Origin: Sulfuricystis thermophila
GTDB lineage: Bacteria > Pseudomonadota > Gammaproteobacteria > Burkholderiales > Rhodocyclaceae
DNA: 64,000 nt
NCBI RefSeq assembly: GCF_004323595.1
Contig: NZ_AP019373.1
Coordinates: forward strand, 2,170,001 to 2,234,000
Direction of reading: 5' to 3'
Shown here: one piece after another, positions 6,826 to 62,965 of the stretch
How positions within the stretch are numbered: position 1 is the first letter of the stretch
How the letters are laid out: each line of letters opens with the position of its first letter
Notes under the pieces: model-generated
Seen by the model: the letters and a program-made list of their open reading frames with translations, nothing else
Database searches by the model: none
Told to the model about the DNA's origin: nothing
Made by a program: the position numbers and the translations under genes

Positions 6826-8141
6826 ATTGGCTGCTGCGTTTTCCCACCCGGTGGACTTTGCCCGTCGTGCTGTTGCTGTTGAGCCTGCTCGCCATCGTCT
6901 GGCTCGATGTCTTGCAGCGCCATGAGTACACGCAGGCCGTCGAAAAGGAAGAGGCGATGCGGCTCAAGGACAGGCTGGCGGTCGAGCAGACACGGCTCGA
7001 GGTGCAGCTGGGCCTGAACAACCGGCTGCAGGTGCGACGCATCGTCAGCTCGCTCGGTTTGCGCCCCGATCTCATGCATGCCTGGCTGATTTCGCCCGAA
7101 GGGCGCGTCGTGGCCTCGCTCTCACGGCTCGAGATCGACGAGCCCTGGGAGAAAATCCGCGCCCGCCTGCCGGCGCCGCTCGCCGCCGCGCTCGACACAG
7201 CCCCGTCCCAAGCCCCCCCGCTCTCCTCGAGCCGTCCGGCCAGCGCCGACTTTCTGCTCGGTGAGATCACTGTCCACCCCGATCATCGCCTCATCGTCGT
7301 CAGCGATCTCGCCGCCCCGCTCGCCCGCCGGCTGGCCTCCGGCCGCAGCGAGCTTTGGTTGCAGATCGGCGCCTTTCTGCTGTTCGCGCTCACGGTCGGC
7401 GTGCTGCTGCATCTGATCTGGGCGCAACGTCTGCGGCGCCTGCTCATGGCCGCCGAACGTCTCGGCAGCGGCGACTTCACCGCGCGCGCCGCGTTGCCGG
7501 GGGCTGATGAGCTCGCCAACATCGGCGCCGCCTTCGACACGATGGCCCAGCGGCTCGCCCGGCAGCAGGACGAAATCCGCCGGCTGGCGACGCTGATCGA
7601 ACAATCCCCGCTGATCGCGATCGTCTGGCGCAACCAACCCGGCTGGCCGGTGGCGTTCGTCAGCGACAACGTCGTGCGCTGGGGGCTCGACAAACACGCG
7701 CTGCTTTCCGGGAAGATTCCCTACAGCGATCTGATCCATCCCGACGATCTGCCGGCGATCGCCGCCGATGTCGAGCAGCATCTCGCCCAGGGCCCGGACC
7801 GCTATGTACAGACCTACCGGCTGCGCGATGGCTTCGGCCACTGGCGCTGGATCGAGGATTACACCTGGCTGCTGCGTGATGAAAAGGGGCAGGTGAGCAC
7901 GATCCAGGGCGTGCTGCTCGACATCAGCGCACGGCGGGAAGCCGAGGAGGCGCTGCACCAGAAGGCCGCCGAACTGGCCGAACGCAATGCCGAGCTGGAA
8001 CGCTTCGCCGCCGCGACGATCGGCCGCGAGGAGGAAATGATTCGCTTGAAGCGTGAGATCAACGCGCTGTGCCGGGAATTCGGCCGGCCCGAACCCTTCG
8101 AGCTCGGCTGGCTCGAAACCGAGCAGGAAGCCCGGCGATGA
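6822..8141 (+). CDS. Membrane HAMP-PAS sensor protein lacking a kinase domain
   Basis: 439 residues. A transmembrane helix lies near 12-30, followed by a periplasmic region to about 180, a second helix near 183-205 and HAMP (RLLMAAERLGSGDFTARA). A PAS/PAC domain occupies about 255-370 and a C-terminal coiled coil follows. No H box or ATPase domain is present. The neighbouring kinase gene overlaps its stop (ATGA), so the two proteins may act as a split sensor. The stretch SRPASADF at about 139-146 is encoded by one copy of the dispersed 25-bp motif. Confidence 0.85.
   Translation: MNWLLRFPTRWTLPVVLLLLSLLAIVWLDVLQRHEYTQAVEKEEAMRLKDRLAVEQTRLEVQLGLNNRLQVRRIVSSLGLRPDLMHAWLISPEGRVVASLSRLEIDEPWEKIRARLPAPLAAALDTAPSQAPPLSSSRPASADFLLGEITVHPDHRLIVVSDLAAPLARRLASGRSELWLQIGAFLLFALTVGVLLHLIWAQRLRRLLMAAERLGSGDFTARAALPGADELANIGAAFDTMAQRLARQQDEIRRLATLIEQSPLIAIVWRNQPGWPVAFVSDNVVRWGLDKHALLSGKIPYSDLIHPDDLPAIAADVEQHLAQGPDRYVQTYRLRDGFGHWRWIEDYTWLLRDEKGQVSTIQGVLLDISARREAEEALHQKAAELAERNAELERFAAATIGREEEMIRLKREINALCREFGRPEPFELGWLETEQEARR
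7230..7253 (+). repeat. Dispersed 25-bp motif, copy 1 (diverged)
   Basis: GCCGTCCGGCCAGCGCCGAC plus TTT lies within the sensor gene and encodes RPASADF. It differs from the consensus GCCGTCCCGCCAGCGCCGAG at two positions. Confidence 0.5.
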
Positions 8142-9628
8142 AACTGTCCCCGCCTTCGCTCGCCGCGCTGCGCATCACGCTGGCCTATCTCGTCTTTGCC
8201 GGCCTGTGGATCATCGCTTCCGACGGCTTCCTGGCGCTGTTCATCCACGATGCCCAGACGATCGCCTCGCTGGGCCTCGTCAAGGGTCTGGCCTTCGTCG
8301 TCCTCACCGCGCTGCTGCTTTACCTGCTGTTGAATCGTCGCTTCACCACACTGGCCAGCGCCCTCACCGAACGCGATGCGGCATTGGCCGCCCTGCAACA
8401 GAACCACGCGCGTTTCGAGGCCGTCTTCGAACAGGCGGCGGTCGGCATCGCGCTGGTCGCTCCGGATGGCCGCTGGCTGAAGGTCAACCGCCGGCTGGCC
8501 GAGATCGTCGGCTACTCGCCCGAAGAGTTGCTGGAAAGGACCTTCCAGGACATCACCCATCCGGACGATCTGGCCGCCGATCTCGCCCATGTGCGCCAGA
8601 TGCTGGCGCGCGAGATCGAACGCTATGCGATGGAAAAGCGCTACATCCGCAAGGATGGCTCGACGGTGTGGATCCTGCTCACCGTGGCGCTGGTCTGGAA
8701 AGCCGATGGCCAGCCGGACTACTTCATCTCGGTGGTCGAGGACATTTCCCGCCAGCACGAGGCCGAAACGAGGCTCAAGGAGGCGCTCGCCTGGCAGCAA
8801 CGGGCGCGGCTGGCGACGTTGAACCAGATGGAAGACGCGCTCGCCGCGCGGCGTGAGGCCGAAGCCGCCAATGCCGAGCTGCGCGAGCTCAACGCCACGC
8901 TGGAAGCCCGTGTGGCGGAACGCACGCAGGCGCTGGCGACGCTCAACCAGTCGCTGGAGAGCTTCGTCTATTCGGTTTCGCACGATCTCAAGACGCCGCT
9001 GCGCGGCATCGATGGCTACTGCCGGCTGCTGGAGGAAGACTATGCCGACCGGCTCGACGACGAGGGCCGGCTGTTCCTCGCCAACGTGCGCCATGGGGTG
9101 GCGCGCATGCAGGAACTGATCGATGATCTGCTCGCCTATTCGCGCATGGAGCGCAAGCCGCTCGCCACCACGGCGCTCGATCCGCGCGGCATCGTCGAGA
9201 ACCTGCTGGCGGAGCGCAGCCAGGAGATCGAGGCACGCCATGTCGCGGTGCGCCTCGAGCTGCCACCGCTCACCCTCGCCGCCGACGCCGACGGCCTGGC
9301 GATCGTGCTGCGCAACCTGCTCGACAACGCGCTGAAATTCACGCGCCAGACGGCCCACCCGGAAATCGTCATCCAAGGCGAGACGAGCGGCGACGGCGTG
9401 CATCTATCGGTGCGCGACAACGGCATCGGCTTCGAGATGAAGTATCACGATCGCATCTTCGAGATCTTCCAGCGGTTGCACCGGCTCGAAGAGTATCCGG
9501 GCACCGGCGTCGGGCTCGCGCTGGTGAAGAAGGCCATCGAGCGCATGGGCGGCCGCGTCTGGGCGGAAGCCGCGCCCAATGCCGGCGCCACGTTTCACCT
9601 TTGGCTGCCGGCCGCCACGGCCGCTTGA
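8138..9628 (+). CDS. PAS histidine kinase, phytochrome-class
   Basis: 496 residues from the ATG at 8138, which overlaps the preceding stop. Two transmembrane helices lie at about 10-30 and 45-68. A PAS domain follows ([15 protein letters not shown]), then a coiled coil, an H box [16 protein letters not shown] near 280, an N box [11 protein letters not shown], and G boxes [10 protein letters not shown] and GTGVGLALV. The H box type and the pairing with an Rcp1-like regulator resemble phytochrome-family kinases, but there is no chromophore domain. It is the last gene of the operon. Likely targets are the receivers at 2134 and 2559. Confidence 0.9.
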
Positions 9629-9661
9629 GCACCGTCATCACCGGCGCAAAGCCAAGCGCGC

Positions 9662-9685
9662 AAACTCGGCGCTGACGGAACGGCA
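9662..9685 (-). repeat. Dispersed 25-bp motif, copy 2
   Basis: An intergenic copy between the kinase and TPP enzyme genes. The plus strand reads AAACTCGGCGCTGACGGAAC then GGCA, which is the reverse complement of the consensus with one or two changes. Confidence 0.75.
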
Positions 9686-11354: not shown

Positions 11355-12868
11355 GCCGGCATGCCTTCCTCGTCATCATCCCGGTCGCCGACCGGCCGCG
11401 CCACATTCGGGCATGTCTTGCCAGCCTCGCCGAACTGTTGCGCCGCTTTCCCTATGCCGGACGCATCCGCGTGCTGCTCGCCGACGACAGCCGCGCGGCC
11501 GCGAGCATCGACGCCAACCGCGCGCTGGCCGAGGCGTTTTCCGCTGCAGGTATCGAAACGATCCACTTCCCGCCGGCCGAGCAGCAAGCGCTCGTCGCTG
11601 CGCTCCCCTCACCCCTGCCGCATGTGCTCGGCGCGGCGCCGGTGGCGCCTTACGGCCACAAGGGCCAGGGCGTGATGCGCAACATCGCCTGGCTGAAAGC
11701 GAGCCAACTATTGAGGGAAGCGCCGGAGGAGACGCTGATCTGGTCGATCGACAGCGACCAGGAGTTCCGCGTCAATGTGCCTGAAAACGACGGCTACGTC
11801 CTCGATTTCTTCAACGCCCTCGATGCGATCTTCACGCGCACCGACGCCGAGGTGCTGACCGGCAAGGTGGTCGGCGACCCACCGGTCTCGCCGGCGGTGA
11901 TGACACGCAATTTCCTCGACGACGTGCTCGCTTTCCTCGCCGACGCCGCGCAGCGCGACCCCTCTGCGCCTTGCAGCCACCATGGGGTGACCGTCTCGCA
12001 CGGCGATGCGGCCTATCACGACATGGCCGAGCTGTTCGGCTTCAGGCCGGCCGAACACTCTCCCTATCCCTGCCCGCTTCCCGGCCTGCACAGCGAGGCC
12101 GACGGCTTCGCGCACTTCGCGGCGCGGGCCAACAGCTTCTTCTATGGCGAGCACCCGACGCGCGTGACCGCTTACCAGCCCGGCGATCCGCTCGCCAGCC
12201 TCGTCCCGGCCCGCACCGTGTATGCCGGCAATGTCGTCTTCCGGCCGTCGGCCCTGCGTTATTTCATTCCCTTCGCGCCCTTGCGGCTACGCATGTCCGG
12301 CCCGACGCTCGGCCGCATCCTGAAGAGCGAGCTAGGAGAGCGCTTCGTCTCGGCCAACCTGCCGATGCTGCACAAACGCACCGTCGAGAGCGGCGGTCAG
12401 GCGGAATTTCGCCCCGGCATCGAGACCCAGGCGACGGCGGTCGACATGAGCGACGAGTTCGAGCGCCAATTCTATGGCGATGTGATGCTGTTCTCAGTGG
12501 AACGGCTCGCCGCGGCCGGCCCCCTGTGCCGTGCCGCCAGCGCCGAGTTTGCGCCAACGCTCGATTGCCTGCGCGAGGAGATGCTGGCGCGCTACAACGA
12601 ACGCCAGACGGCAGTGCTTTCCCGTCTGGCGCGGCTTATGGCCCTGCTCTCCGATCCGGCGCAATGGTGGAACCAGCGGCCCGGTCTGGCCGAGGGCCTG
12701 CGCCATTTCGCCGCCAACGTGCGGCACAATTTCGCCGCCGAAAACTCTGGACAGGCGCGCATCAACGATGAGGCACGCTGGCAGGACTGGCGCGCCCGGC
12801 TGCTCGACGGCCTCGAACACTACGCCGAAGATCGTGCGGCATGGGCACGACTCCTCGTGAGCTTGTGA
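11351..12868 (+). CDS. Glycosyltransferase-like protein with element-derived stop
   Basis: 505 residues from ATG 11351. The N-terminus VIIPVADRPRHIRACLASL and the acidic WSIDSDQEF resemble nucleotide-sugar (GT-A) glycosyltransferases. I do not recognise a precise family. The last codons and the TGA at 12866 lie inside repeat element A, so the native C-terminus has been changed by the insertion. It is coupled to the TPP enzyme upstream. Confidence 0.6.
   Translation: MSRHAFLVIIPVADRPRHIRACLASLAELLRRFPYAGRIRVLLADDSRAAASIDANRALAEAFSAAGIETIHFPPAEQQALVAALPSPLPHVLGAAPVAPYGHKGQGVMRNIAWLKASQLLREAPEETLIWSIDSDQEFRVNVPENDGYVLDFFNALDAIFTRTDAEVLTGKVVGDPPVSPAVMTRNFLDDVLAFLADAAQRDPSAPCSHHGVTVSHGDAAYHDMAELFGFRPAEHSPYPCPLPGLHSEADGFAHFAARANSFFYGEHPTRVTAYQPGDPLASLVPARTVYAGNVVFRPSALRYFIPFAPLRLRMSGPTLGRILKSELGERFVSANLPMLHKRTVESGGQAEFRPGIETQATAVDMSDEFERQFYGDVMLFSVERLAAAGPLCRAASAEFAPTLDCLREEMLARYNERQTAVLSRLARLMALLSDPAQWWNQRPGLAEGLRHFAANVRHNFAAENSGQARINDEARWQDWRARLLDGLEHYAEDRAAWARLLVSL
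12526..12550 (+). repeat. Dispersed 25-bp motif, copy 3
   Basis: GTGCCGTGCCGCCAGCGCCG followed by AGTTT, inside the glycosyltransferase-like gene. One mismatch to the consensus core. It encodes CRAASAEF in the sense frame. Confidence 0.75.
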
Positions 12869-22253: not shown

Positions 22254-23701
22254 AAGCCGGGGCGCGCGCCGCGTTGCATTTCGCTTTTGCGCTGCCGCAA
22301 TTCGCGCAAACGCGCATCCACTTCGGATTGCTCGTAGAAATTGGCATCGCCGGCCTGGCGGGCGAGCTCCAGTTGCATGATCGCCTCGTCGAGCTGTCCT
22401 TGCGCGAGATAGGCCTCTGCCTGCGCCCGATGCTCGCGCAGCCGCTCGCCGAGCGCCGCATGGGCCTTCGCTTCCAGCGCATGGAGGCGTGCGTCGCCGG
22501 GCGTGAGCTGCAGTTCCCGATGCGCGATGGTGACGACTTCGCGCGCCTGTGCCGCTGTGCCAGCGCCGAGTTTCGTTTCGAGCAACGCGTAGGTGAGGGC
22601 GCGCGCGTTCGGGAAGCGCCGCGCCGCCTCTTGCAGGATGCGGATCGCGCCCTCGGTGTCCTTGCGCTGGAGGCGAATCTGCGCCGCGAGGTTTTCGACC
22701 AGCGGCGATTCGAGTTTGAGCCGCCTCAAGGCCGCCAGCTCTTCTTCCGCCGCCGCGACCCGGTTGTCGCGCAGCAGCGCATGCGCCAGCCCAAAGCGCA
22801 CGTCGGCCTCGCGCGCATACTTGCCGGATTTGAGCTGGGCGGCGAAATCGGCCACCGCATCGCCGGGCGTGCCCTGATAAGCCCTGATCTTGGCGCGCAC
22901 CAGGCCGAATTCGACGCTGTCCGGCACCTGACGGTAGGGCCGCTGGGCGATGCGGTTTTCCATGTCGGTGATGCGCTCGGTGGTCAGCGGGTGGGTGCGC
23001 AGATAAGCCGGCGCATTGTTTTCGTAGAGGCGGCCGAATTGCAGCATGCGCTGGAAAAAGCTCGCCATGCCGCGCGTATCGAAACCGGCGCGCTCCATCA
23101 GATCGAGGCCGAAACGGTCCGCCTCGCGTTCGAAGTCGCGCGAATAGTTGAGCTGCTGCTGGATGCCCGCCGCCTGCCCGGCCACCGCCGCGCCCACCGC
23201 CACGTCCGGATTGCTGCGCGCCGCCAGGAGCGCCACCGCCAGCGAGAGCAGCGAGGCGAGCTGAGCCTGGCTCTGGGTTCCGAACATGCGCGCCAGATGG
23301 CTTTGCGTGACGTGCGAGATTTCATGCGCCAGCACGCCGGCCAGTTCCGATTCGGAACGCGCGGCGAGGATCAGACCGGTATGCACGCCGACGAAGCCGC
23401 CGGGAAGCGCGAAGGCGTTGAGCATCGGATCGCGCACGACGAAAAACTCGAACGAAGTGCGCGCACCCTCGACATGGCTGGCCAGCCGCTGGCCGAGCCG
23501 GTCGATGTAGTCGGCGATCTCGGCATCATGGACGTAATCCGGGTCGCGGCGGATCTCCGCCATGATCTTTTCGCCCAGGCGCCGCTCGGCCGGCACCGAC
23601 AGACCGCTGCGCTCCAGCTCGCCCAGATCGGGCAAGCCATCGGCCGAAGCCATCCCCGCCGGCAGCAGAAGCAAAAGGCAAAACCACAGGATCACTCGCA
23701 T
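22250..23701 (-). CDS. Periplasmic M48 metalloprotease with TPR tail (BepA-like)
   Basis: 483 residues from ATG 23701. A signal peptide (residues 1 to about 20, ending MASADG) is followed by an M48 domain with HEISH zinc motif and the downstream EADRFGLDLM Glu ligand. A C-terminal TPR-like repeat region begins near 290. The layout matches BepA/YfgC, which maintains outer-membrane protein assembly. The segment TKLGAGTAAQ in the TPR part coincides with a copy of the dispersed 25-bp motif. The longer frame reading back into moaC and element A is not the real start. Confidence 0.9.
   Translation of the reverse strand: MRVILWFCLLLLLPAGMASADGLPDLGELERSGLSVPAERRLGEKIMAEIRRDPDYVHDAEIADYIDRLGQRLASHVEGARTSFEFFVVRDPMLNAFALPGGFVGVHTGLILAARSESELAGVLAHEISHVTQSHLARMFGTQSQAQLASLLSLAVALLAARSNPDVAVGAAVAGQAAGIQQQLNYSRDFEREADRFGLDLMERAGFDTRGMASFFQRMLQFGRLYENNAPAYLRTHPLTTERITDMENRIAQRPYRQVPDSVEFGLVRAKIRAYQGTPGDAVADFAAQLKSGKYAREADVRFGLAHALLRDNRVAAAEEELAALRRLKLESPLVENLAAQIRLQRKDTEGAIRILQEAARRFPNARALTYALLETKLGAGTAAQAREVVTIAHRELQLTPGDARLHALEAKAHAALGERLREHRAQAEAYLAQGQLDEAIMQLELARQAGDANFYEQSEVDARLRELRQRKSEMQRGARPGF
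22549..22573 (+). repeat. Dispersed 25-bp motif, copy 4 (diverged)
   Basis: GTGCCGCTGTGCCAGCGCCG then AGTTT, antisense to the M48 gene, encoding KLGAGTAA. Three mismatches in the 5' half; the 3' half is exact. Confidence 0.55.
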
Positions 23702-27826: not shown

Positions 27827-27852
27827 AAATCTCGGCGCTGGCAGGACGGCAC
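27827..27852 (-). repeat. Dispersed 25-bp motif, copy 5
   Basis: AAATCTCGGCGCTGGCAGGA then CGGCAC on the plus strand, 2 bp beyond the stop of the sugar transferase gene. One inserted T and one substitution against the consensus. Confidence 0.65.
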
Positions 27853-38222: not shown

Positions 38223-38242
38223 TTTGCCCTACCTACACATGT

Positions 38243-40915: not shown

Positions 40916-40927
40916 AGTGCATAGACG

Positions 40928-41566: not shown

Positions 41567-41584
41567 GGTCTAGGTCGAAAAAGT

Positions 41585-41770: not shown

Positions 41771-41799
41771 ACCTTCCTGGTTTGTTGTCCTGTGGTAGC

Positions 41800-42036: not shown

Positions 42037-42225
42037 GCCAGATGATGGAGATTGAAGCCGGGGCACGCTTTGCTTTCGTCTGTTTTTGCTTATTCGGAAC
42101 GAATTATAAGCGGGATGATCGGGTCATTCTTGGTGTTGTCGGTAGCCGGGGCAGCGATGCATCTTCGATCGGAATGGGCGATCCTTGAGCTGTTTGATGC
42201 CGTTTGCGCAAATGGTTCGATTTCC

Positions 42226-42774: not shown

Positions 42775-42858
42775 CCGGCAATCACCTCCAGAGCCGCGCC
42801 CGTCGCACCCACTACGGCATGCGGCGATATTCCCTTGTTCATATGCCTCGCCCTTCGC

Positions 42859-43293: not shown

Positions 43294-43580
43294 CGCGCCG
43301 ACTCGCGTTCTTCCAGCAGCGCCTGGACTGCGCTGGCGCGCTTTGCCGGCGCTGGGGGAGGCGCCAGGCGGCACGCCTTGCCATGGCCTCGCCGCAGGAG
43401 ACCCTTGCGTTCCAGCAGTGCCAGCTCGTCCGCGCCAGGCTGGCCGTTTTCGACCCCTGCCGGAATCAGCCGGGCGACCGGACGGCCGTGATCGGTGATG
43501 AAAATGGTCTCTCCCTGCCGCACCCGCTCGATCAGTGCGCTCAACTGATTTTTGGTTGCGGATATCGAGGCGGTTTTCAT
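43290..43580 (-). CDS. Phd/YefM-type antitoxin of the PIN toxin
   Basis: 96 residues. MKTASISATKNQLSALIERV...GETIFITDHGRPVARLIP is the Phd/YefM DNA-binding fold; the charged C-terminus would bind the toxin. It lies upstream of and overlaps the toxin. A palindromic operator with -10 box sits on its start codon (43579-43599). Confidence 0.88.
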   Translation of the reverse strand: MKTASISATKNQLSALIERVRQGETIFITDHGRPVARLIPAGVENGQPGADELALLERKGLLRRGHGKACRLAPPPAPAKRASAVQALLEERESAR

Positions 43581-43599
43581 ATGGCCATTATAGCCATAT
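43579..43599 (-). promoter_or_regulatory. Operator with -10 box, probable leaderless start
   Basis: ATATGGC-N7-GCCATAT, perfect 7-bp arms. Its minus-strand centre reads TATAAT (43592-43587), so transcription would begin about at the antitoxin ATG (43580). Antitoxin binding here would block the promoter. Confidence 0.6.
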
Positions 43600-43752
43600 C
43601 ATGCCATGAAGATTTCGGATCGTCCGCCACCGCAAACGCATCTGCCAGCGGCTGAAGGTCGGCGAATCTTCGCGTCCCCGCTCCTCGCCAATAGACACCG
43701 TTATGGGCTCGTCGCGGGGACGCAAACTTGCTCGCCCTCGCCATCGATACCC

Positions 43753-43780
43753 GCTCGTGTTCCAATGGACAATCTGGGTT
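43753..43780. repeat. Right-end remnant of repeat element B
   Basis: GCTCGTGTTCCAATGGACAA then TCTGGGTT, identical to the right end of 16234-16388. No left end is seen; 43600-43752 shows nothing else recognisable. It is joined to the truncated rfbC copy. Confidence 0.8.
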
Positions 43781-43837
43781 GAACACTTTCGGTTCGATGA
43801 CCCGCACGTCGGGGATGGTGGTGGGGGTGGCTTTCAT
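43778..43837 (-). pseudogene. Duplicated 5' fragment of rfbC
   Basis: Twenty codons (MKATPTTIPDVRVIEPKVFN) match the start of rfbC at 42774 with few changes, and then break off exactly at the inverted end of element B. The ATG overlaps the stop of the vapC gene at 43837. Confidence 0.85.
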
Positions 43838-44268
43838 CAAACGATCAACTCTAGGCTGGAATCGCTCGTTCCCTTCACGGCAAGGCGCGGGATGCCCTTG
43901 TCGAGCGTCACCAGGCGGCCTTTGTGCTTCACCGCCAATGCGAGCAAATAGGCATCCGTCACTTGGCGGGAGCCGAGAATGCGCCTCCAGTCAATCACGC
44001 CGGGAGTCAGCATGCTGATGTCGTCTGGCCAAAACTGGTGCAGAGGGTGGGCGACCGCCTCTTGCAGCCTTTCGGCGACTGCGCTCGCAGGAACAGGATT
44101 CGGATAGCTCGGGTGGGACATGATGCGTATGCATCCATTCTGGGTAAGAGGACAGGAGGCCCATCCTGACGCAGCATTTTCTTCCAGCCACTCTGTCGCA
44201 CGGCGATGCTGTAGATGGTTGGCGTCCAGCAACGCGATCAGCACATTCACATCCAGCAAAGCCCGCAT
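43837..44268 (-). CDS. vapC: PIN-domain toxin VapC
   Basis: 143 residues from ATG 44268, overlapping the antitoxin stop (TGATG). RALLDVNVLIALLDANH carries the first PIN Asp; later acidic residues are in VTDAYLLALA and LVTLDKG. It is a probable ribonuclease toxin of the VapC type. It is followed directly by the duplicated rfbC start. Confidence 0.9.
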   Translation of the reverse strand: MRALLDVNVLIALLDANHLQHRRATEWLEENAASGWASCPLTQNGCIRIMSHPSYPNPVPASAVAERLQEAVAHPLHQFWPDDISMLTPGVIDWRRILGSRQVTDAYLLALAVKHKGRLVTLDKGIPRLAVKGTSDSSLELIV

Positions 44269-44507
44269 CAAACACCTTCCTGCTCGCGCAAGGCATTGAC
44301 TTGATCGTTGGTAACGATGTTTGCGCCACTTGCGAATGGCCGAAACCCTACCACGGCCTTACCACCTTCCGCCAATCGGTTCGCCCGACCCGTCAATGCA
44401 TCCCGCAGAAGCTGCGAAACGACTTGGCCGGCAGATTGATGCTGCTGCCTTGCCAATGCCTTGGCGGCGTTCAATACGTCTTCGTCGATATCCAGCGTCG
44501 TCCTCAT
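44268..44507 (-). CDS. vapB: Ribbon-helix-helix antitoxin VapB
   Basis: 79 residues. MRTTLDIDEDVLNAAKALAR is a ribbon-helix-helix start, and the C-terminal region would wrap the toxin. It is coupled to vapC. GCATCATGATGC palindromes lie 23-58 bp upstream. Confidence 0.9.
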   Translation of the reverse strand: MRTTLDIDEDVLNAAKALARQQHQSAGQVVSQLLRDALTGRANRLAEGGKAVVGFRPFASGANIVTNDQVNALREQEGV

Positions 44508-44529
44508 GATCCATTCCTTACCTGGCCAC

Positions 44530-44565
44530 GCATCATGATGCTAGCACATCAAGATGCGATGATGC
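44530..44565. promoter_or_regulatory. Palindromic operator upstream of vapBC
   Basis: GCATCATGATGC (44530-44541) is a perfect 12-bp palindrome; a further ATGATGC half-site is at 44559-44565. This is typical spacing for a ribbon-helix-helix antitoxin operator. Confidence 0.5.
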
Positions 44566-44621
44566 TTCTCAGGAAACCCTCGCGACACTGGCTGGATGTC
44601 GTGGCGTTCCGCAGGATTTCC

Positions 44622-45518
44622 TCAGGTCAATACCCGTTCGTCGAGCAACCGCAGCAGATACTGGCCATAGCCGTTCTTCGCCAGCGGTTCGGCCAGCCGC
44701 CGTAGTTGCATGGCGTCGATCCAGCCCTGGCGCCAGGCGATCTCTTCCGGGCAGGCCACTTTCAGCCCCTGGCGCTTTTCCAGCGTGGCGATGAACTGGC
44801 CGGCTTCGAGCAGCGATTCGTGGGTGCCGGTGTCGAGCCAGGCATAGCCGCGCCCCATGATTTCGACGTCGAGCCGGCCGCGTTCGAGGTAGAGGCGGTT
44901 GAGGTCGGTGATTTCCAGCTCGCCACGCGCCGAGGGCTTCAGGGTCTTGGCCAGCGCGACGACTTCGGCATCGTAGAAGTAAAGCCCGGTCACTGCGTAA
45001 TTCGATTTGGGTTGCCGTGGCTTTTCTTCGATGCTGATCGCCTTGCCGTTGGCATCGAATTCGACCACGCCGTAGCGTTGGGGATCGAGGACGTGGTAGG
45101 CGAAGACCGTGGCGCCGGTGGTGCGTTGGCAGGCGCTGGCGAGCAGCTTGTGGAAGTCGTGGCCGTAGAACAGGTTGTCGCCGAGCACGAGGGCGCAGGG
45201 GGCTTGGCCGATGAAGTCTGCGCCGATCAGGAAGGCTTGCGCCAGGCCATCGGGGCTGGGTTGCACCGCATAGTCGAGCTTCAACCCCCATTGGCTGCCG
45301 TCGCCGAGGAGCTGCCGAAAGCGCGGCGTGTCCTGCGGCGTGGAGATGATCAGGATGTCGCGGATGCCCGCCAGCATCAGCGTGCTCAGCGGGTAGTAGA
45401 TCATCGGCTTGTCGAACACCGGCAGGAGCTGCTTGGAGACGGACAGGGTGGCAGGATGCAGCCGGGTGCCGGCGCCACCGGCGAGGATGAGGCCTTTGCG
45501 ATTGTGTGGTGTGTTCAT
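44622..45518 (-). CDS. rfbA: Glucose-1-phosphate thymidylyltransferase
   Basis: 298 residues from ATG 45518 (AGGAAG upstream). [21 protein letters not shown] is the nucleotide-binding signature, followed by [16 protein letters not shown] and a C-terminal [10 protein letters not shown]. It forms dTDP-glucose, the first step of the rhamnose pathway. An ATPase gene separates it from rfbD. Confidence 0.96.
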
Positions 45519-46736: not shown

Positions 46737-47639
46737 TCAAGCCGGGATGATCTGCGCCAGAACGTGATGCAGCCCCTGCCGCCAATCCGGCAGGACGAGA
46801 CCGAAGGTTTTGCGCAGTTTGCTGGTGTCGAGACAAGAGTTGGCCGGACGTTTCGCCGGCAGCGGATAGTCGGCGGTGGCGATCGCTTGCACGTCCTCGG
46901 GACGGAGGCGCAGCGGCCGGCCCGCGGCCAGTGCCGCACGCACGATTTCCTGGGCGTATTCGTGCCAGCTGGTGCGGCCAGCGGCGACGAGGTGATACAA
47001 ACCGAAAGCAAAGTCGGCGCTGGCGGGACGGCACGCCCGGACGTATTGGCCGAGGATTTGCGCGGTCACGTCGGCGATCAACGCTGCCGAGGTCGGCGCG
47101 CCGAACTGGTCGGCGACGACGCGCAGCGTGTCGCGCTCGGCGGCGAGCCGCAGGATGGTTTTCACGAAATTGCCACCGTGCGCGCCGAACACCCAGCTGG
47201 TGCGAAAGATCAGATGACGCGCGCCGCTGGCGATCAGCGCCCGTTCGCCGGCGAGCTTGCTCCGGCCATAGACATTGAGCGGATTGGGCGCATCGTCTTC
47301 CGTGTAGGCGCCTGCCTTGCGGCCGTCGAAGACGTAATCGGTCGAGTAATGCACGACCAGGGCGCCGAGTCGCTTCGCCTCTTCGCCCAGCAGGCCGGGC
47401 GCGTCGGCATTGATCGCCTGCGCGAGTGCCGGTTCGGATTCGGCCTTGTCCACCGCGGTATAGGCGGCAGCATTGACGATGATCTGCGGTGCGACCTCGC
47501 GGATCAGGCGGCGGAGTGCATCGGGCTGCGCGAGGTCGCATTCGGCATGGCCGACGGCGACGATCTCGGCGAGTGGCGCCAACGCGCGTTGCAGCTCGAA
47601 ACCGACCTGGCCGTTCTTGCCGGTGAGGAGAATCTTCAT
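46737..47639 (-). CDS. rfbD: dTDP-4-dehydrorhamnose reductase
   Basis: 300 residues from ATG 47639. KILLTGKNGQVGFELQ is the NADPH motif, STDYVFDG and PLNVYGRSKLAGE carry the catalytic Tyr-x3-Lys. It is the last step of dTDP-L-rhamnose synthesis. RACRPASADFAFG around residue 205 is longer than in relatives and contains a copy of the dispersed 25-bp motif. Confidence 0.95.
   Translation of the reverse strand: MKILLTGKNGQVGFELQRALAPLAEIVAVGHAECDLAQPDALRRLIREVAPQIIVNAAAYTAVDKAESEPALAQAINADAPGLLGEEAKRLGALVVHYSTDYVFDGRKAGAYTEDDAPNPLNVYGRSKLAGERALIASGARHLIFRTSWVFGAHGGNFVKTILRLAAERDTLRVVADQFGAPTSAALIADVTAQILGQYVRACRPASADFAFGLYHLVAAGRTSWHEYAQEIVRAALAAGRPLRLRPEDVQAIATADYPLPAKRPANSCLDTSKLRKTFGLVLPDWRQGLHHVLAQIIPA
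47010..47034 (-). repeat. Dispersed 25-bp motif, copy 8
   Basis: Minus strand GTGCCGTCCCGCCAGCGCCG then ACTTT, consensus except one base. It is in the sense orientation inside rfbD, encoding CRPASADF. Confidence 0.8.
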
Positions 47640-49091: not shown

Positions 49092-51941
49092 TCATTTGCA
49101 ACGGCGTGCCGTCCCGTCAGCGCCGATTTTCAGCATGGGCGCCAGATAGCGCCCGGTATGGCTGCCCATGCTTTGCGCCACGGCTTCCGGCGCGCCCGTG
49201 GCGATGATGCGCCCGCCGCCGTCGCCGCCTTCCGGCCCGAGATCGACGATCCAGTCCGCGGTCTTGATGACGTCGAGATTGTGTTCGATGACGACGATCG
49301 TATTGCCGGCATCGCGCAGGCGGTGCAGGACTTTCAACAGCATCTCGATGTCGTGGAAATGCAGCCCCGTGGTCGGTTCGTCGAGGATGTAGAGCGTGCG
49401 GCCGGTATCGCGTTTGGAGAGTTCCAGCGCGAGTTTCACGCGCTGCGCCTCACCGCCGGAAAGCGTCGTCGCACTTTGCCCGAGCTGGATGTAGGACAAG
49501 CCGACATCGATCAGCGTCTGCAGTTTCCTCGCCACCACCGGCACCGGCGCGAAGAATTCATAGGCCTGTTCGACGGTCATCTGCAGCACTTCATAGATCG
49601 TCTTGCCCTTGTAGCGAATTTCGAGTGTTTCGCGGTTGTAGCGTTTGCCGTGGCAGACGTCGCAGGGCACGAAGATGTCGGGCAAAAAGTGCATCTCCAC
49701 CTTGATCATGCCGTCGCCCTGGCAGGCTTCGCAGCGGCCGCCCTTGACGTTGAAGGAAAACCGCCCCGGCCCGTAGCCGCGCTCCCTCGCCTGCGGCACG
49801 GCGGCGAAGAGCTCGCGGATCGGCGTGAGCAGCCCCGTGTAGGTGGCGGGGTTCGAGCGCGGGGTGCGGCCGATCGGGCTTTGGTCGACGTTGATGACCT
49901 TGTCGAAATATTCGAGGCCCTGGATTTCCTCGTGCGGCGCGGGTTCCAGTGCCGAGCCGTAGAGGTGGCGCGCCGCCGCGGCGTAGAGCGTGTCGTTGAT
50001 CAGCGTCGATTTACCGGAGCCGGAGACGCCGGTGATGCAGGTCAGGAGCCCGACCGGGATTTCGAGATCGACGCGCTTGAGGTTGTTGCCGGTGGCGCCG
50101 AGGATTTTCAGCTGCCGCGCCGGATTGGGCGGCGTGCGTTTCTTCGGCACCTCGATCCGGCGCCGGCCGGAGAGATAGGCGCCGGTCAGCGATTCTGGAT
50201 GCGCCGCGATTTCGGCCGGCGTGCCCTGCGCGACGATGCGCCCGCCATGTTCGCCCGCGCCCGGCCCCATGTCGACGACATGATCGGCCGATTCGATCGC
50301 CTCTTGGTCGTGCTCGACGACGATCACCGTGTTGCCCAGATCGCGCAAATTGGCGAGCGTTTGCAGCAGGCGGGTGTTGTCGCGCTGGTGTAGACCGATC
50401 GACGGCTCGTCGAGCACATACATCACGCCGGTGAGGCCCGAACCGATTTGGGAAGCCAGCCGGATGCGCTGCGCCTCGCCGCCTGAGAGCGTCTCGGCCG
50501 AACGGTCGAGCGAGAGGTAATCGAGGCCGACGTTGATCAGGAAGGTCAAGCGCGAGGTGATTTCCTTGATGATCTTCTCGGCCACCTGGGCGCGCTGGCC
50601 GGTGAGCTGCAAGAGGTTGAAGAAGTCGCGGCAGTCGATGAGGCTCAAGCGGCTCACCTCGGCGATCGTCTTGCCGCCGACGAAGACATGGCGCGCTTCG
50701 CGCCGCAGGCGCGCGCCGCCGCAGTCCGGGCAGGGCTTGTGATTGAGGTATTTCACCAGCTCTTCGCGCACCATCTGGCTCTCGGTCTCGCGGTAGCGGC
50801 GTTCGAGATTGGGGATGATGCCCTCGAAGGTATGCGCGCGCTCGAAGCGCGTGCCTTTTTCGTTGAGATAGCGAAAGCGAATCGACTCGCGTCCGGAACC
50901 GTAGAGCACGACCTGGCGCACGCTTTCCGGCAGCGCCTCGAAGGGCGTGTCGACATCGAAGCCGTAATGCGCGGCGAGCGATTCGATCATCTGGAAATAG
51001 AACTGGTTGCGCTTGTCCCATCCCTTGATCGCGCCGGCGGCGAGGCTCAAATGCGGATAGGCGACGACGCGCGCCGGATCGAAGAACTGGATCTGTCCCA
51101 AGCCATCGCATTGCGGGCAGGCGCCCATCGGGTTGTTGAATGAAAACAGGCGCGGCTCGAGTTCGGGCAGCGCATAGCCGCAATGCGGGCAGGCGAACTT
51201 GGCCGAGAACAGATGCTCGACGCCGCTGTCCATCTCGACCGCGATGCAGCGGCCTTCGGCGTGGGTGAGCGCGGTCTCGAAGGATTCCGCCAGCCGCTGG
51301 CGCTGGTCGGCACGCACCTTGAGGCGATCGACGACGACATCGACCGAGTGCTTCTTCGTTTTGGCGAGCTTCGGCAAGGCATCGATGTCATACACCTTGC
51401 CATCGACGCGCAGGCGCACGAAGCCCTGGGCCTTCAATTCGGCGAACAGGTCGAGTTGCTCGCCCTTGCGGTCGGCAACGACCGGCGCGAGGATCATCAG
51501 CTTCGTATCCTCGGGCAAGGCCAGCACGTGATCGACCATCTGCGAGACGCTCATCGCCTCGAGCGCCACGCCATGTTCGGGGCAATGCGGTTGGCCTGCG
51601 CGCGCGTAGAGCAGGCGCAGGTAGTCGTGGATCTCGGTCACCGTGCCGACGGTCGAACGCGGATTGTGGGAAGTCGCCTTCTGCTCGATGGAAATAGCAG
51701 GCGAGAGGCCCTCGATCAGGTCGACGTCGGGCTTCTCCATGAGTTGCAGGAACTGGCGCGCGTAGGCCGAGAGCGATTCGACATAACGGCGCTGGCCTTC
51801 GGCATAGAGCGTGTCGAAGGCGAGCGAAGACTTGCCGGAGCCGGACAAGCCGGTGATCACGGTGAGCTGGTTGCGCGGCAGATCGAGATCGATGTTCTTG
51901 AGGTTGTGCGTCCTGGCGCCGCGAATCTTGATCGTTTCCAT
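49092..51941 (-). CDS. uvrA: UvrABC excinuclease subunit A
   Basis: 949 residues from ATG 51941. It has two ABC ATPase modules: Walker [13 protein letters not shown] and [10 protein letters not shown], each with an LSGGEAQR signature. Zinc-finger cysteines include CPHCGY and CPQC, CPDCGG, and [10 protein letters not shown] and CDVCHG. It scans DNA for bulky damage in nucleotide excision repair. The protein ends [20 protein letters not shown]; the last ~12 residues extend beyond the usual end and are encoded by a dispersed 25-bp motif. Confidence 0.97.
49106..49130 (+). repeat. Dispersed 25-bp motif, copy 9
   Basis: GTGCCGTCCCGTCAGCGCCG then ATTTT, two mismatches. It is antisense to uvrA and supplies the C-terminal codons KIGADGTA. 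Confidence 0.78.
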
Positions 51942-51985: not shown

Positions 51986-52010
51986 CTGCCGTCCCGCCAG
52001 CGCCGAGAGC
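51986..52010 (+). repeat. Dispersed 25-bp motif, copy 10
   Basis: CTGCCGTCCCGCCAGCGCCG then AGAGC: the full consensus core with a different 3' end. Intergenic between uvrA and vapB. Confidence 0.8.
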
Positions 52011-52732: not shown

Positions 52733-53920
52733 ATGCGTTTCTCCGCCATCGACCCGATGACCCCCGCCGAACGGCGCACCGGCGGCGTGCTGGCCGCGAT
52801 CTTCGGCCTGCGTATGCTGGGCCTGTTCCTCGTGCTGCCGGTATTCGTCGTGCTTGCGAAGCACCTGCCGGGCGGCGACGATGCCGCACTGGTCGGCCTG
52901 GCGCTGGGCGCCTATGGCCTGACCCAAGCCTTTTTGCAGATCCCATTCGGCATCGCCTCCGATCGTTTCGGCAGGAAGCCGGTGATCGTCTTTGGCCTGC
53001 TACTGTTCGCAGCCGGCAGCTTCGTCGCCGCAGCTGCGCCAAACATCCACGTCATGATCCTCGGCCGCGTGCTGCAGGGCGCCGGTGCGATTTCCGCCGC
53101 GATCACCGCGCTGGCGGCCGACCTGACGCGCGAACAGCATCGCACCAAGGTGATGGCGATGATCGGCGCCTCGATCGGCCTGGTGTTCGCCGCCTCGCTG
53201 GTGATCGCGCCGCCGCTGGCCGCCGCACTCGGACTCTCCGGCCTGTTCGTGCTGATCGGCGCACTCGCGCTGGGCGCCATCGTGTTGCTGTTCGCTGCCG
53301 TTCCGCCAGCGCCGAGTTTCGCCACGCACGAACGTCCGCCGTTCTCCGCCGTGCTGTTCGATGCGAAACTCGCACGCATCAATTTCGGCGTCTTCGCGCT
53401 GCACCTGATGCAGACGGCGCTGTGGGTCGTGATTCCGCCGGCGCTCATCACCGCCGGGCTTCCCGGCGGCGAGCACTGGAAGATCTATCTGCCGGCGGTG
53501 CTGCTCTCGTTCGCCGTCATGGTGCCGGCGGTCATCGCCGCCGAGAAGCGCGGCCGCATGCGGTCGATCTATGCCGGCGCGGTGGCGCTGCTGGTTCTCG
53601 TGCAGGGGGGACTCGCCCTGTTCGGCGGCGGCCTGTGGAGTGTGGGCTTCTGGCTGCTGCTGTTCTTCGTCGCCTTCAATATCCTCGAAGCACTGCAGCC
53701 CTCGCTGATCTCGCGCCTCGCGCCGCCGGCGGCCAAGGGCGCGGCACTGGGCATCTACAACACGACGCAATCGTTCGGTCTGTTCCTCGGCGGCGCACTG
53801 GGCGGCTGGCTGGTCAAACACCACGGCGCCGTCGGCGTTCATCTCGCTTGCGCCGTGCTTGGTATCATCTGGCTGATGCTGGCGTCACGACTTGCGACGC
53901 CCCAACCACTGACGAACTAG
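52733..53920 (+). CDS. MFS transporter
   Basis: 395 residues with 12 predicted helices. GIASDRFGRKPVIVFGL is the MFS motif A loop. Drug or metabolite efflux is likely; the substrate is unknown. The uvrA-MFS-ssb neighbourhood is usual in betaproteobacteria. AAVPPAPSF in the central loop coincides with a copy of the dispersed 25-bp motif. Confidence 0.9.
   Translation: MRFSAIDPMTPAERRTGGVLAAIFGLRMLGLFLVLPVFVVLAKHLPGGDDAALVGLALGAYGLTQAFLQIPFGIASDRFGRKPVIVFGLLLFAAGSFVAAAAPNIHVMILGRVLQGAGAISAAITALAADLTREQHRTKVMAMIGASIGLVFAASLVIAPPLAAALGLSGLFVLIGALALGAIVLLFAAVPPAPSFATHERPPFSAVLFDAKLARINFGVFALHLMQTALWVVIPPALITAGLPGGEHWKIYLPAVLLSFAVMVPAVIAAEKRGRMRSIYAGAVALLVLVQGGLALFGGGLWSVGFWLLLFFVAFNILEALQPSLISRLAPPAAKGAALGIYNTTQSFGLFLGGALGGWLVKHHGAVGVHLACAVLGIIWLMLASRLATPQPLTN
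53295..53319 (+). repeat. Dispersed 25-bp motif, copy 11
   Basis: CTGCCGTTCCGCCAGCGCCG then AGTTT, in the central cytoplasmic loop region of the MFS gene, encoding AVPPAPSF. Confidence 0.75.
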
Positions 53921-58195: not shown

Positions 58196-59042
58196 GACCG
58201 CCACATTATTCATCGTCGCCACCCCGATCGGCAACCTCTCCGACATCACGCTGCGCGCGCTGGAGACGCTGAAATCCGTCGCCGTGATCGCCTGCGAGGA
58301 CAAGCGCCATGCGCGGCGGCTTCTGGCGCATTATGACATCCGCACGCCGCTGCTGGCATTGCACGAACACAACGAACGGCAGGCGGCGGAACGGCTGATC
58401 GAACGGCTTGCCGCAGGTCATGACGTCGCGCTGATCTCGGACGCCGGCACGCCCGCGGTGTCGGATCCCGGCGCGCGCGCGGTGGCCGCCGTGCGTGCGG
58501 CGGGATTTCGCGTCGTGCCGATTCCCGGCCCGAACGCCGCGATCGCCGCACTCTCGGCAGCAGGCTTCGAGGGGCCGTTCTGCTTCGTCGGCTTTTTGCC
58601 GCCCAAAGTCGGCGCTCGCCGGACGGCACTCGAAGGCATCAAGTCTTTGCCGGCCACCCTCGTGTTCTACGAAGCGCCCCATCGCATCGTCGAGACCGTC
58701 GCCGACCTCGCGGCAATCCTGGAGCCGGAGCGGGAAATCGTCATCGCCCGCGAGCTGACCAAGCTGTTCGAACAGATCGAACGCATGCCGCTGCTTGCTG
58801 CGCCAGCCTGGCTTGCCAGCGATGAAAACCATCGCCGCGGCGAATTCGTGCTCATCGTCTCCGCGCCGCCGCCGCACGAGGGACTCGATGCCGAGAGCGA
58901 GCGCATCCTGAAACTGCTGCTTGCGGAGTTACCCGTCAAACAGGCGGCGAGGCTCGCTGCTGCAATCACCGGCCAGCCGAAGAACGACCTCTATGCGCGG
59001 GCACTGGCGCTGCGCCGGAACAGCAGCGAGGGCTCGCTATAA
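58194..59042 (+). CDS. rsmI: 16S rRNA (cytidine 1402-2'-O)-methyltransferase
   Basis: 282 residues from ATG 58194 (ATG 58185 is possible; GGGGGAT precedes both). LFIVATPIGNLSDITLRALE and ISDAGTPAVSDPGA are the tetrapyrrole-methylase-fold motifs. It methylates C1402 in the ribosomal P site. Divergent from yraN. Confidence 0.95.
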   Translation: MTATLFIVATPIGNLSDITLRALETLKSVAVIACEDKRHARRLLAHYDIRTPLLALHEHNERQAAERLIERLAAGHDVALISDAGTPAVSDPGARAVAAVRAAGFRVVPIPGPNAAIAALSAAGFEGPFCFVGFLPPKVGARRTALEGIKSLPATLVFYEAPHRIVETVADLAAILEPEREIVIARELTKLFEQIERMPLLAAPAWLASDENHRRGEFVLIVSAPPPHEGLDAESERILKLLLAELPVKQAARLAAAITGQPKNDLYARALALRRNSSEGSL

Positions 59043-59364: not shown

Positions 59365-60427
59365 AGCCACACCCATTCTGACGGCCGAACGACTGACCCT
59401 CACCCGCCCCGACGACTGGCACCTGCACCTGCGCGATGGCGAGGCGCTCAAAGCGGTGCTGCCGGATACGGTAAAGCGCTTCGCGCGCGCCATCGTGATG
59501 CCGAATCTCAAGCCGCCGGTGACCACCGTTACGCAGGCAGCGGCGTATCGTCAGCGGATTCTCGCTGCCGTCCCGCCAGGACCGACTTTCACACCCTTGA
59601 TGACGCTGTATCTGACCGACGACCTGCCGGCCGACGAGATCGAGCGGGCGATCGACAGCGGCATCATTCACGCGGTGAAGCTCTATCCCGCCGGCGCGAC
59701 GACGAATTCCGCTGCCGGGGTCACCGACCTCAAGAAATGCAGCGCAACGCTCGCCCGCATGGAAAGGCTCGGCCTGCCGCTCTTGGTGCATGGCGAGGTT
59801 ACCGATCCGGCAGTGGACATTTTCGACCGCGAGGCGGTGTTCATCGAACGGGTGCTCACGCCGCTCCTCAAGGATTTTCCGGCGCTCAAAGTGGTGCTCG
59901 AACATGTCACGACCCAAGACGGCGTCGAGTTCGTCAAGGCATGTGGGGCGAACGTCGCGGCGACGATCACCGCGCATCATCTGCTGTTGAACCGCAACGC
60001 GATTTTCGCCGGTGGCATCCGGCCCCACCACTACTGCCTGCCGGTTTTGAAGCGCGAGACCCATCGTCAGGCGCTGTTGACTGCGGCGACTTCCGGCAAC
60101 CCGAAGTTCTTCCTCGGCACCGACTCCGCGCCGCACGCGCGCCGCACGAAAGAGGCCGCTTGCGGCTGCGCCGGCTGCTACACCGCGCATGCCGGCATCG
60201 AACTGTATGCCGAAGCCTTCGAGCAGGCCGGCGCGCTCGACCGACTCGAAGGCTTCGCGAGCCACTTCGGCGCCGACTTCTACGCTCTGCCGCGCAATAC
60301 GGAGCAAATCACCCTCGTGCGCGCAGCTTGGCGCGTGCCAGACGAACTGCCCTATCTCGCCGACGATGTGCTCGTGCCGCTGCGGGCCGGCGCGACCGTC
60401 GGCTGGAAACTGGAGGATATGCAATGA
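59357..60427 (+). CDS. pyrC: Dihydroorotase
   Basis: 356 residues. Metal ligands are DWHLHLRDG (His-x-His), [11 protein letters not shown] (carbamylated Lys), HGE, EHVTT and HHL, and GTDSAPHAR (catalytic Asp). It catalyses ring closure of carbamoyl aspartate in pyrimidine synthesis. It overlaps its neighbours on both sides. AAVPPGPTF near 70-78 coincides with a copy of the dispersed 25-bp motif. Confidence 0.97.
59565..59589 (+). repeat. Dispersed 25-bp motif, copy 12
   Basis: CTGCCGTCCCGCCAGGACCG then ACTTT, two or three mismatches, inside pyrC. Confidence 0.6.
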
Positions 60428-61558: not shown

Positions 61559-61573
61559 AACAAAGGGGAGCGA

Positions 61574-62023
61574 GTGTTCCAAGGCGCGGCACAACTGAGT
61601 CTGGATGCAAAAGGGCGGCTGGCGATCCCCGCCCGGCACCGCGACGACCTCGTCGCGGCCGGCAATGGCCGGCTCGTGCTCACCGCGCATCCACACCGTT
61701 GCCTGCTGCTCTATCCCGAGCCCGCCTGGCAACCGATCCGCGACAAGATCCTTGCCGCGCCGAGCTTCGATCCGCGCTCGGCGGCCCTGAAGCGCATCCT
61801 GGTCGGCAACGCGCGCGATTGCGAGATCGATGCGGCCGGCCGCATCCTGATCGCGCCGGAACTGCGCGACACCGCGGAGTTCGACAAACAGGTATGGCTG
61901 GTGGGCATGGGCTCCCACTTCGAGATCTGGAGCGACGCCGGCTGGCGCCGCCAGCATGAGACCGCCTTCGAGGCCCTGGCCGGCAGCGAGCCGCCGCCGG
62001 GATTCGAGGGTATTTCGCTGTGA
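61574..62023 (+). CDS. mraZ: Transcriptional regulator MraZ
   Basis: 149 residues from a GTG (AGGGGAG upstream). It has two AbrB-like repeats: LDAKGRLAIPARHRDDL and IDAAGRILIAPELRDTAEF. It binds the GTGGG repeats upstream and tunes the division and cell-wall operon. Followed by rsmH. Confidence 0.95.
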   Translation: MFQGAAQLSLDAKGRLAIPARHRDDLVAAGNGRLVLTAHPHRCLLLYPEPAWQPIRDKILAAPSFDPRSAALKRILVGNARDCEIDAAGRILIAPELRDTAEFDKQVWLVGMGSHFEIWSDAGWRRQHETAFEALAGSEPPPGFEGISL

Positions 62024-62032
62024 GCGGCTTCG

Positions 62033-62965
62033 ATGAGCGCGCCAACGTCAGCGCAGCACCAGCCGGTGCTGCTTGCCGAAGCCGTCGCCGCCCTGGCCAT
62101 CCGGCCGGACGGCCTCTATGTGGATGGCACCTTCGGGCGCGGCGGCCACAGCCGCGCGATTCTCGCGCGACTCGGGCCACAGGGGCGGCTCGTCGCGCTG
62201 GATCGCGATCCGCAGGCGGTCGCGGCGGGCAGGGAGATCGCCGATCCGCGCTTGACGCTCGTCCATGCCGCTTTCAGCCGCTTGGGCGACGTCTTGGATG
62301 CCTTGGGCATCGCTCGGGTCAATGGGATTCTGCTCGATCTGGGCGTGTCCTCGCCGCAGCTGGACGATCCGGCGCGCGGCATGAGTTTTCGTTTCGATGC
62401 GCCGCTGGACATGCGCATGGATACGACGCAGGGGGAAACCGCGGCGGAGTTTCTGGCGCGGGCCGATCAATCGGAAATCGAGGAGGTGATTCGTGAGTAT
62501 GGCGAAGAACGGTTTGCTCATGCGCTTGCAAAGGCGCTTGTTGCTGCTCGGCAGCGGGAACGTATTTCATCCACAGGACAACTTGCCGCGCTCGTGGCGC
62601 AGGTCGTGCGCACGCGCGAGCCTGGCCAGCATCCGGCGACGCGCACCTTCCAGGCTCTACGGATTCACGTCAATCGGGAGCTTGAGGAGCTCTCGCTAGC
62701 CCTGCCCCAGGCGCTCGATCGTTTGCAGCCGGGCGGAAGGCTCGCCGTGATCAGTTTCCATTCGCTCGAAGACCGCATCGTCAAGCGCTTTCTGCGCCAT
62801 GCGGCGCAGCCGCCGCAACCGCCGAAAGGCGTGCCGGTGCGGGCTGCCGAGCTGCCAGCGCCGAGTCTGCGCCTGATCGGCAAGCCGATCCGCCCCGGCG
62901 CTGCGGAAATCGCCCGCAATCCCCGTGCCCGGAGCGCGGTGCTGCGAGTCGCGGAGAAGTGCTGA
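62033..62965 (+). CDS. rsmH: 16S rRNA (cytosine 1402-N4)-methyltransferase
   Basis: 310 residues. [29 protein letters not shown] (SAM site), [14 protein letters not shown] and [13 protein letters not shown] are all conserved. It methylates the same nucleotide as RsmI at 58194. Its stop overlaps ftsL. Confidence 0.97.
62844..62868 (+). repeat. Dispersed 25-bp motif, copy 13 (weak)
   Basis: CTGCCGAGCTGCCAGCGCCG then AGTCT, inside rsmH. The encoded ELPAPSLR fits normal RsmH sequence, so this match may be chance. Confidence 0.3.

Follow-up and report, generated by a model that had tools for sequence, protein, structure and literature searches.

The chromosome of Sulfuricystis thermophila, a single contig of 2,737,315 bases whose positions 2170001-2234000 form the 64,000-nucleotide stretch analysed here (the window), contains hundreds of copies of a 24-bp bipartite motif. 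Our analysis of these sequences suggests that the motif is most likely an independently evolved DNA uptake sequence lying outside the neisserial and pasteurellacean tag families, with a probability of roughly 0.65. We liken it to the DNA uptake sequences (DUS) of Neisseriaceae and the uptake signal sequences (USS) of Pasteurellaceae because most of the testable features of those systems match. The motif is abundant, arises in place, is conserved, occupies permissive places within genes, exists as genus dialects and is restricted to seven genera, and from these observations we infer binding, uptake, a receptor, drive and a single origin. A fuller proposal, which we hold at somewhat better than even odds, is a third, independent self-DNA uptake specificity, comprising a 24-bp bipartite tag in at least seven genus forms, with one origin in an environmental Rhodocyclaceae clade, repeated losses, and a non-ComP receptor that co-evolved with the dialects.

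Structure, abundance and origin of the copies

The window and 20 sampled 20-kb stretches of the same genome (464 kb together) yielded the 24-position consensus TGCCGTCCCGCCAGCGCCGA(C.65/G.28)TTT with a weak preceding G, and the information content dropped to near background on either side. The motif is bipartite, GCCGT-N4-CCAGCGCCGA(C/G)TTT. Constancy is 90-100% in CCAGCGCCGA and in the T following C/G and lowest in the three letters 3' of GCCGT. GCCGT and CCAGCGCCGA stand 4 bp apart in 71 of 73 occurrences in this genome and in 40 of 43 in the sister species G002 (G, L and g numbers denote sampled genomes, sampled stretches and genera, respectively, and a genome rich in the motif is called a carrier). 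An earlier, sequence-only reading of the window had described the motif as non-palindromic, which holds for single copies, and had given a consensus that was correct overall, except that the base preceding TTT is C in ~65% and G in ~28% of copies.

Across the whole chromosome, GTCCCGCCAGCGCCGASTTT occurs 417 times at up to 2 mismatches (207 forward, 210 reverse), a density of ~1 per 6.5 kb, whereas the same string read backwards occurs 0 times on the forward and 0 times on the reverse strand. In the 464-kb set, 95 copies were counted at up to 3 mismatches, whereas 60 shuffles, each of which preserved all predicted proteins along with their codon usage, averaged 1.7 copies and never exceeded 6; at the same threshold, neither the reversed nor the complemented consensus had a match (0 each). 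Copies with 0, 1, 2, 3, 4 and 5 mismatches numbered 12, 38, 30, 15, 10 and 7, respectively, beyond which the chance curve dominates. Within the window, the 20-mer of the sequence-only reading matched 14 times at up to 3 mismatches with 0.04 expected, and the 24-mer consensus 15 times at up to 4 mismatches. All 13 positions listed in that reading carry the motif, 12 among the 20-mer matches and 22549 in the repeat family D6 and among the 4-mismatch copies, and its list lacked two copies, at 3418-3441 (-) and 58605-58628 (-). Of the checks it had proposed, the codon-shuffled count placed the observed number far above the model, the strand comparison revealed no bias, and a hand tally, in which local GC skew assigned 41 copies to the leading-strand orientation and 54 to the opposite one, revealed no clear replichore bias.

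Genes were defined by a simple open reading frame caller (457 genes, 89.0% coding in 464 kb), which makes the coding figures approximate. At up to 4 mismatches, 68 of 105 copies lie within genes, 8 at gene edges and 29 are fully intergenic, the last being in excess of the 11% of the sequence that is non-coding. Genic copies are evenly split (34 sense, 34 antisense). AVPPAPTF is the commonest reading of the sense copies (23 of 34) and KVGAGGTA that of the antisense copies (24 of 34), with other frames also found. The families identified among ten copy-bearing window genes include GGDEF/EAL, HAMP/PAS, M48 peptidase, DUF4143, RmlD, UvrA, MFS, RsmI-type methylase and amidohydrolase, and one gene had no family at E 1e-8. 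The intergenic-or-genic location claimed from sequence alone agrees with these numbers, and the accompanying claim that the motif is not a conserved protein motif is borne out by its occurrence in all three phases, on both strands and in unrelated protein families. The number of copies per 20-kb stretch at up to 3 mismatches ranges from 0 to 10, with a mean of 4.15 and a variance of 3.92 (20 stretches), that is, the spacing is roughly random.

Syntenic stretches were compared with those of five genomes of the same genus, among them the motif-free G006, and of G023 from another genus. Both flanks were aligned in 168 site-partner comparisons, covering 91 sites; the partner carried the motif in 119 of these and lacked it in 49. 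The net length difference in the 49 motif-lacking comparisons (33 sites) was 0 in 28 and within 6 bp in 30, the rest spanning -63 to +236, and 0 of the 49 were shorter by 21-27 bp. Because more than half of the motif-lacking partners keep their length and none is short by 21-27 bp, the motif appears to arise in place and not by insertion, mostly emerging inside pre-existing sequence of equal length. For lgt (L381:19721), the identity of which was confirmed by the LGT family, G002 carries the motif, whereas the allele of S. thermophila is of equal length and has 12 mismatches to the consensus, with flanks ~89% identical. Since some alleles with and without the motif, such as those of lgt, differ at many positions at once, these differences suggest short-tract replacement rather than single point changes, as has likewise been argued for the DUS of Neisseria in the accessible text of PMC2397512.

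Between S. thermophila and G002, the motif is retained at 34 of 40 and at 28 of 30 of the sites aligned. The identity of the motif columns is 0.885, as compared to 0.829 and 0.819 for the two flanks, and that of the variable motif columns is 0.63-0.80. In addition, the sequence flanking coding copies is less conserved (identity 0.842, n = 29) than that at randomly chosen coding positions (0.878), indicating permissive sites. In eight well-aligned stretches, 1 copy was found in 21,740 bp of non-shared sequence, defined as seven inner segments of at least 800 bp without a match in the G002 sample (window 33663-42230 and 42776-44673 included), versus 35 copies in 172,868 bp of aligned sequence. 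These counts suggest that the motif is scarce in segments absent from the sister species. The sole stretch of the 20 without a copy at up to 3 mismatches, L022, is a prophage by gene content (primase, Cas4-type exonuclease, Sak4-like protein and integrase).

Distribution, dialects and uptake machinery

With a dialect-tolerant pattern, at least 118 copies were found in 38 of 297 genomes of the family sample, belonging to 7 of 68 genera, and the remaining 259 genomes had 19 or fewer; outside the family, the maximum was 5 copies among 242 genomes of the order sample. The carriers comprise 11 of 12 genomes in g1, 11 of 12 in g2, 4 of 4 in g62, 9 of 9 in g80 and the single genomes (1/1 each) of g25, g54 and g61. 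Two genomes within carrier genera are motif-poor, G006 of the S. thermophila genus (0 copies) and G269 of g2 (9 copies). Exact 24-mer matches numbered at least 120 stretches in GTDB genome contigs, from which S. thermophila itself was possibly excluded. By hand tally, 57 of the 80 matches listed are metagenome-assembled genomes titled Rhodocyclaceae bacterium, and Sulfuritalea, Sulfurisoma and unclassified Proteobacteria are also present; single exact matches among those listed are titled Tepidimonas, Azonexus, Casimicrobiaceae and Sideroxyarcus, and may reflect contamination or transfer. Motif clusters were also seen in otherwise nearly motif-free genomes (G089:C104, G115:C1 1.46-1.50 Mb, G337:C3 and G384:C34), and may stem from contamination or from transfer out of carrier genomes.

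De novo word counts and per-genome consensus sequences revealed related yet distinct forms of the motif in 11 genomes of 7 genera. Examples are TCGCCGTCTCGCCAGCGCCGACTTTT in G071, CGCCGTRTCACCAGCGCCGACTTTT in G097 (GC 51%), GCCGTAYCSCCAGCGTCGACTTTT in G078, CGCCGTCCCGCCAGCRCCGACTTTT in G042 and CGCCGTRYCGYCAGCGCCGACTTT in G019, each dialect consensus being derived from just 7-13 copies except for those of S. thermophila, G001 and G078. A ComEC tree built from 20 genomes groups all 14 carriers sampled with the motif-poor G006, G269 and G056 on one side and sets three non-carriers apart; the split has a support of 82/90 and is not a starred fork, in a tree of one gene that samples 4 of the 61 non-carrier genera. 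The carrier state requires a minimum of 4 changes on this tree, which is compatible with one gain and three losses.

Judging from gene content, uptake machinery is plausibly present. ComEC and T2SSE-family ATPases were each found in 22 of 22 genomes, the two genome lists having 20 in common, and N_methyl pilins were found in 22 of 22 genomes with 2 to 21 matches.

The uptake reading and its alternatives

We propose that the type IV pilus or the competence machinery would bear a receptor that binds the motif on free DNA, that the pilus would draw the DNA inward, that ComEC would pass one strand across the inner membrane, and that recombination would swap in the homologous stretch. Fragments with a good motif would be imported more often, and motif-bearing alleles would thereby be copied back into the population. 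Because of this preferential import, the motif would accumulate in place wherever shared genes tolerate it, and would be rare in newly acquired DNA. It would grow by base changes together with short replacement tracts; drift of the receptor would lead to drift of the motif and to genus dialects, and loss of uptake would lead to its decay.

Neisseriaceae belong to the same GTDB order as Rhodocyclaceae. Their DUS resemble the motif in being genome-wide, non-palindromic, present on both strands and both coding and intergenic, in their genus dialects and conserved core, in their permissive places and in the pairing of copies as hairpins. The first five letters, GCCGT, are also common to both, which may be a coincidence. 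They differ in length (10-12 bp vs ~24 bp) and in number, with thousands of copies as compared to ~400 here. The accessible text of PMC3630211 gives nearly 6,000 and 2,257 DUS copies in two genomes, and that of PMC2397512 describes neisserial parallels in flank identity, terminator pairs and rarity in acquired genes. The USS of Pasteurellaceae show the same genome behaviour and also have a longer extended form (eUSS, 17 positions according to the accessible part of PMC12616744), whereas their sequence is unrelated to the motif and their hosts belong to a different bacterial class. We place the motif outside the known tag families because, in 464 kb, the DUS GCCGTCTGAA (10-mer type, CTG core) had 0 copies, the other seven dialects not being counted, and the USS AAGTGCGGT and ACAAGCGGT had 2 and 0 copies, respectively, and were not over-represented.

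As far as the accessible part of PMC12616744 states, DUS and USS are known only from Neisseriaceae and Pasteurellaceae. Literature searches, whose coverage leaves out most subscription papers and preprints, had no title on uptake sequences in Rhodocyclaceae among the matches listed, and in searches with 11-12-letter strings the titles listed concern other organisms. If the uptake reading is true, this would be the third bacterial family with self-DNA uptake tags, after those of Neisseria and Haemophilus, and would test the idea tying such tags to mucosal life; some record titles suggest that the carriers live free in groundwater, biofilms and other environments, and not on mucosae. The dialects, together with the nearby motif-poor G006, G269 and G056, would offer natural contrasts for a co-variation search for the receptor, and a tree that brackets the origin of the motif would bear on selection versus drive as the source of tags.

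Several results weigh against an uptake sequence. Known tags measure ca. 9-12 nt, less than the 24 bp of the motif, and the density of the motif is low. The depletion in non-shared DNA is weak alone, ~4.4 copies being expected (Poisson) vs 1 observed; a cruder split that includes the stretch ends showed no depletion (0.22 copies per kb in aligned vs 0.27 in unaligned sequence), the prophage stretch L022 was selected for inspection on account of its zero copies, and exact copies occur in 40 IMG/VR viral contigs. The flanks of non-coding copies are no more divergent than random places (0.846, n = 17, vs 0.844). Carriers do not cluster significantly on the ComEC tree, 72 of 500 label shuffles requiring as few changes, a result that weakens the single-origin part of the proposal. 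Cognate receptors are ComP in Neisseria and, by prediction, ComN/PpdA in Pasteurellaceae. No receptor was found here: ComP_DUS, N_methyl pilins, ComEC and T2SSE ATPases all fail to separate carriers from non-carriers. The ComP_DUS family (PF16732) is present in 37 of 41 relatives regardless of the motif; the member in S. thermophila, a 143-aa pilin-like protein, resembles the non-carrier members among those of 21 genomes; and the carrier G078 has just 2 pilin-type N-terminal matches. Moreover, the motif-poor G006 and G269 retain ComEC and the ATPases, and loss of machinery is thus no explanation for their state.

The sequence-only reading had offered an uptake-like signal, a mobile microelement and a binding site as explanations; the first is the best supported, the second fails for single copies, and the third remains as the strongest rival, although we consider it unlikely. 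It supposes a clade-specific nucleoid-associated or chromosome-organising or segregation protein that binds hundreds of chromosomal sites. This explanation makes largely the same predictions as uptake. The length and bipartite form of the motif, its fixed spacing and its invariant core are footprint-like, and the in-place origin, the presence on both strands, the roughly random spacing and the conservation would also fit. However, the copies show neither a strand bias nor a clear replichore bias, and their scarcity in non-shared DNA and loss from single species, while compatible with such a protein, fit uptake better. HIP1, Chi, KOPS (FtsK-orienting polar sequences) and matS are short words over-represented across a chromosome. 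HIP1 has 70 copies in the 464 kb, and the motif differs from all four in being much longer, non-palindromic, without genome-wide strand bias and not domain-restricted in the 20-stretch sample. To our knowledge, known sites with a role in chromosome organisation have a shorter and often palindromic sequence, are fewer, or are restricted to a domain or strand, which we count against this alternative.

A mobile micro-element, spread by insertion and then eroded, is quite improbable. It could resemble a repetitive extragenic palindromic (REP) element, a miniature inverted-repeat transposable element (MITE) or an in-frame insert, of which the Rickettsia palindromic elements are an example. In its favour, a minority of copies belong to strong-hairpin cassettes that recall REP elements and bacterial interspersed mosaic elements (BIME) in forming hairpins, in being intergenic or genic, and in sometimes standing in tandem in 54-bp steps. 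The 464 kb contain 11 such cassettes of ~78 bp, consisting of the motif, an inverted arm like AGTCGGCGCCCGGCGGGAC and a partial motif 54 bp on; one is extended by a further 54 bp, and the first motif of that at L016:8241 is much degraded. At L013:6979, S. thermophila has a cassette and G002 a single motif, and the converse holds at L021:3510; recombination between two direct copies would explain these differences. A search of 72,556 plasmid records with an 81-nt cassette query gave no match. Conversely, the large majority of copies stand singly and, in contrast to REP and BIME, are non-palindromic and originate in place; these single copies have no insertion footprint. Their origin by insertion is contradicted by the length-conserving orthologue comparisons, and dialects and conservation above that of the flanks are unexpected for eroding inserts.

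An RNA-level signal, such as a terminator, attenuator or mRNA element, is less probable still. One cassette folds strongly, at -40.8 (forward) and -38.5 (reverse) kcal/mol, and the inverted arm lies outside predicted genes in 7 of the 11 cassettes. Neisserial DUS likewise pair into hairpins that serve as terminators, according to the accessible text of PMC2397512. A single copy, in contrast, hardly folds (-3.2 and -5.5 kcal/mol), sense and antisense copies are equal in number within genes, and copies are distributed along genes. Finally, the recurrence of AVPPAPTF and KVGAGGTA might speak for a conserved protein motif or for chance; this reading has a negligible probability and is refuted by the codon-preserving shuffles and by the multiple frames and unrelated families.

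Copies in the window and other repeats

Table 1. Motif copies and the motif-free region in the window; mismatches are relative to the 24-mer consensus.
Feature	Position	Strand	Context
Motif copy, 3 mismatches	3418..3441	-	Within PAS/GGDEF/EAL protein gene
Motif copy, 2 mismatches	7230..7253	+	HAMP/PAS protein gene, reads SRPASADF
Motif copy, 2 mismatches	9662..9685	-	Non-coding; orthologous G002 site retains motif
Motif copy, 1 mismatch	12527..12550	+	Coding, frame CRAASAEF
Weak motif copy, 4 mismatches	22550..22573	+	Antisense, M48 peptidase gene
Motif copy, imperfect TTT tail	27828..27851	-	
Weak motif copy, 4 mismatches	30493..30516	+	Antisense, DUF4143 gene; G002 site degenerate, gap-free
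Motif copy	33341..33364	+	
Perfect motif copy	47010..47033	-	RmlD-type gene, reads CRPASADF
Motif copy, 2 mismatches	49107..49130	+	Antisense over final codons, UvrA-type gene
Motif copy, 3 mismatches, without TTT tail	51987..52010	+	Outside predicted genes
Motif copy, 1 mismatch	53296..53319	+	MFS transporter gene, reads AVPPAPSF
Motif copy, 2 mismatches	58605..58628	-	Antisense, RsmI-type methyltransferase gene
Motif copy, 2 mismatches	59566..59589	+	Amidohydrolase-family gene; G006 orthologue gap-free, without motif
Weak motif copy, 4 mismatches	62845..62868	+	Reads AAELPAPSL
Motif-free region	33663..44673	.	Mostly two segments without alignment to sampled G002 sequence, 33663-42230 and 42776-44673

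The motif-free region carries genes of the glycosyltransferase, methyltransferase, sulfotransferase, polysaccharide synthesis and APS kinase types. This region also contains a 76-nt direct repeat, 89% identical, at window positions 42716-42791 and 43779-43854.

Other repeats were observed in the same sequences. A second repeat, CTTGTGAAAAA, occurs 16 times in the 464 kb (window 2090, 12862-12990 and 23775-23920; L014, L017, L028 and others). Several occurrences, near the ends of genes, form the facing termini of a MITE-like element whose length is very roughly 100-200 bp, and one adjoins the uptake-like motif at L028:6749. A repeat around AACCCAGATTGTCCATTAGA, possibly another small mobile element, is present at window 16234-16388, where 109 nt separate its inverted ends, at 43736-43783 and at L028:8021. 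At window 60836-60926, 13 tandem TTACGGG 7-mers have a telomere-like look and constitute the sole array of at least 3 in the 464 kb. In the sample of the carrier G078 (L205-L224), words around CCCCGTGTTCCCCGTG are over-represented and resemble a CRISPR repeat. The sample of G023 (L235-L244), from a non-carrier genus, contains other repeated words, such as GGTTGGGGTGAG and TGTGGGAGCGGC, at 8-9 copies per 200 kb.

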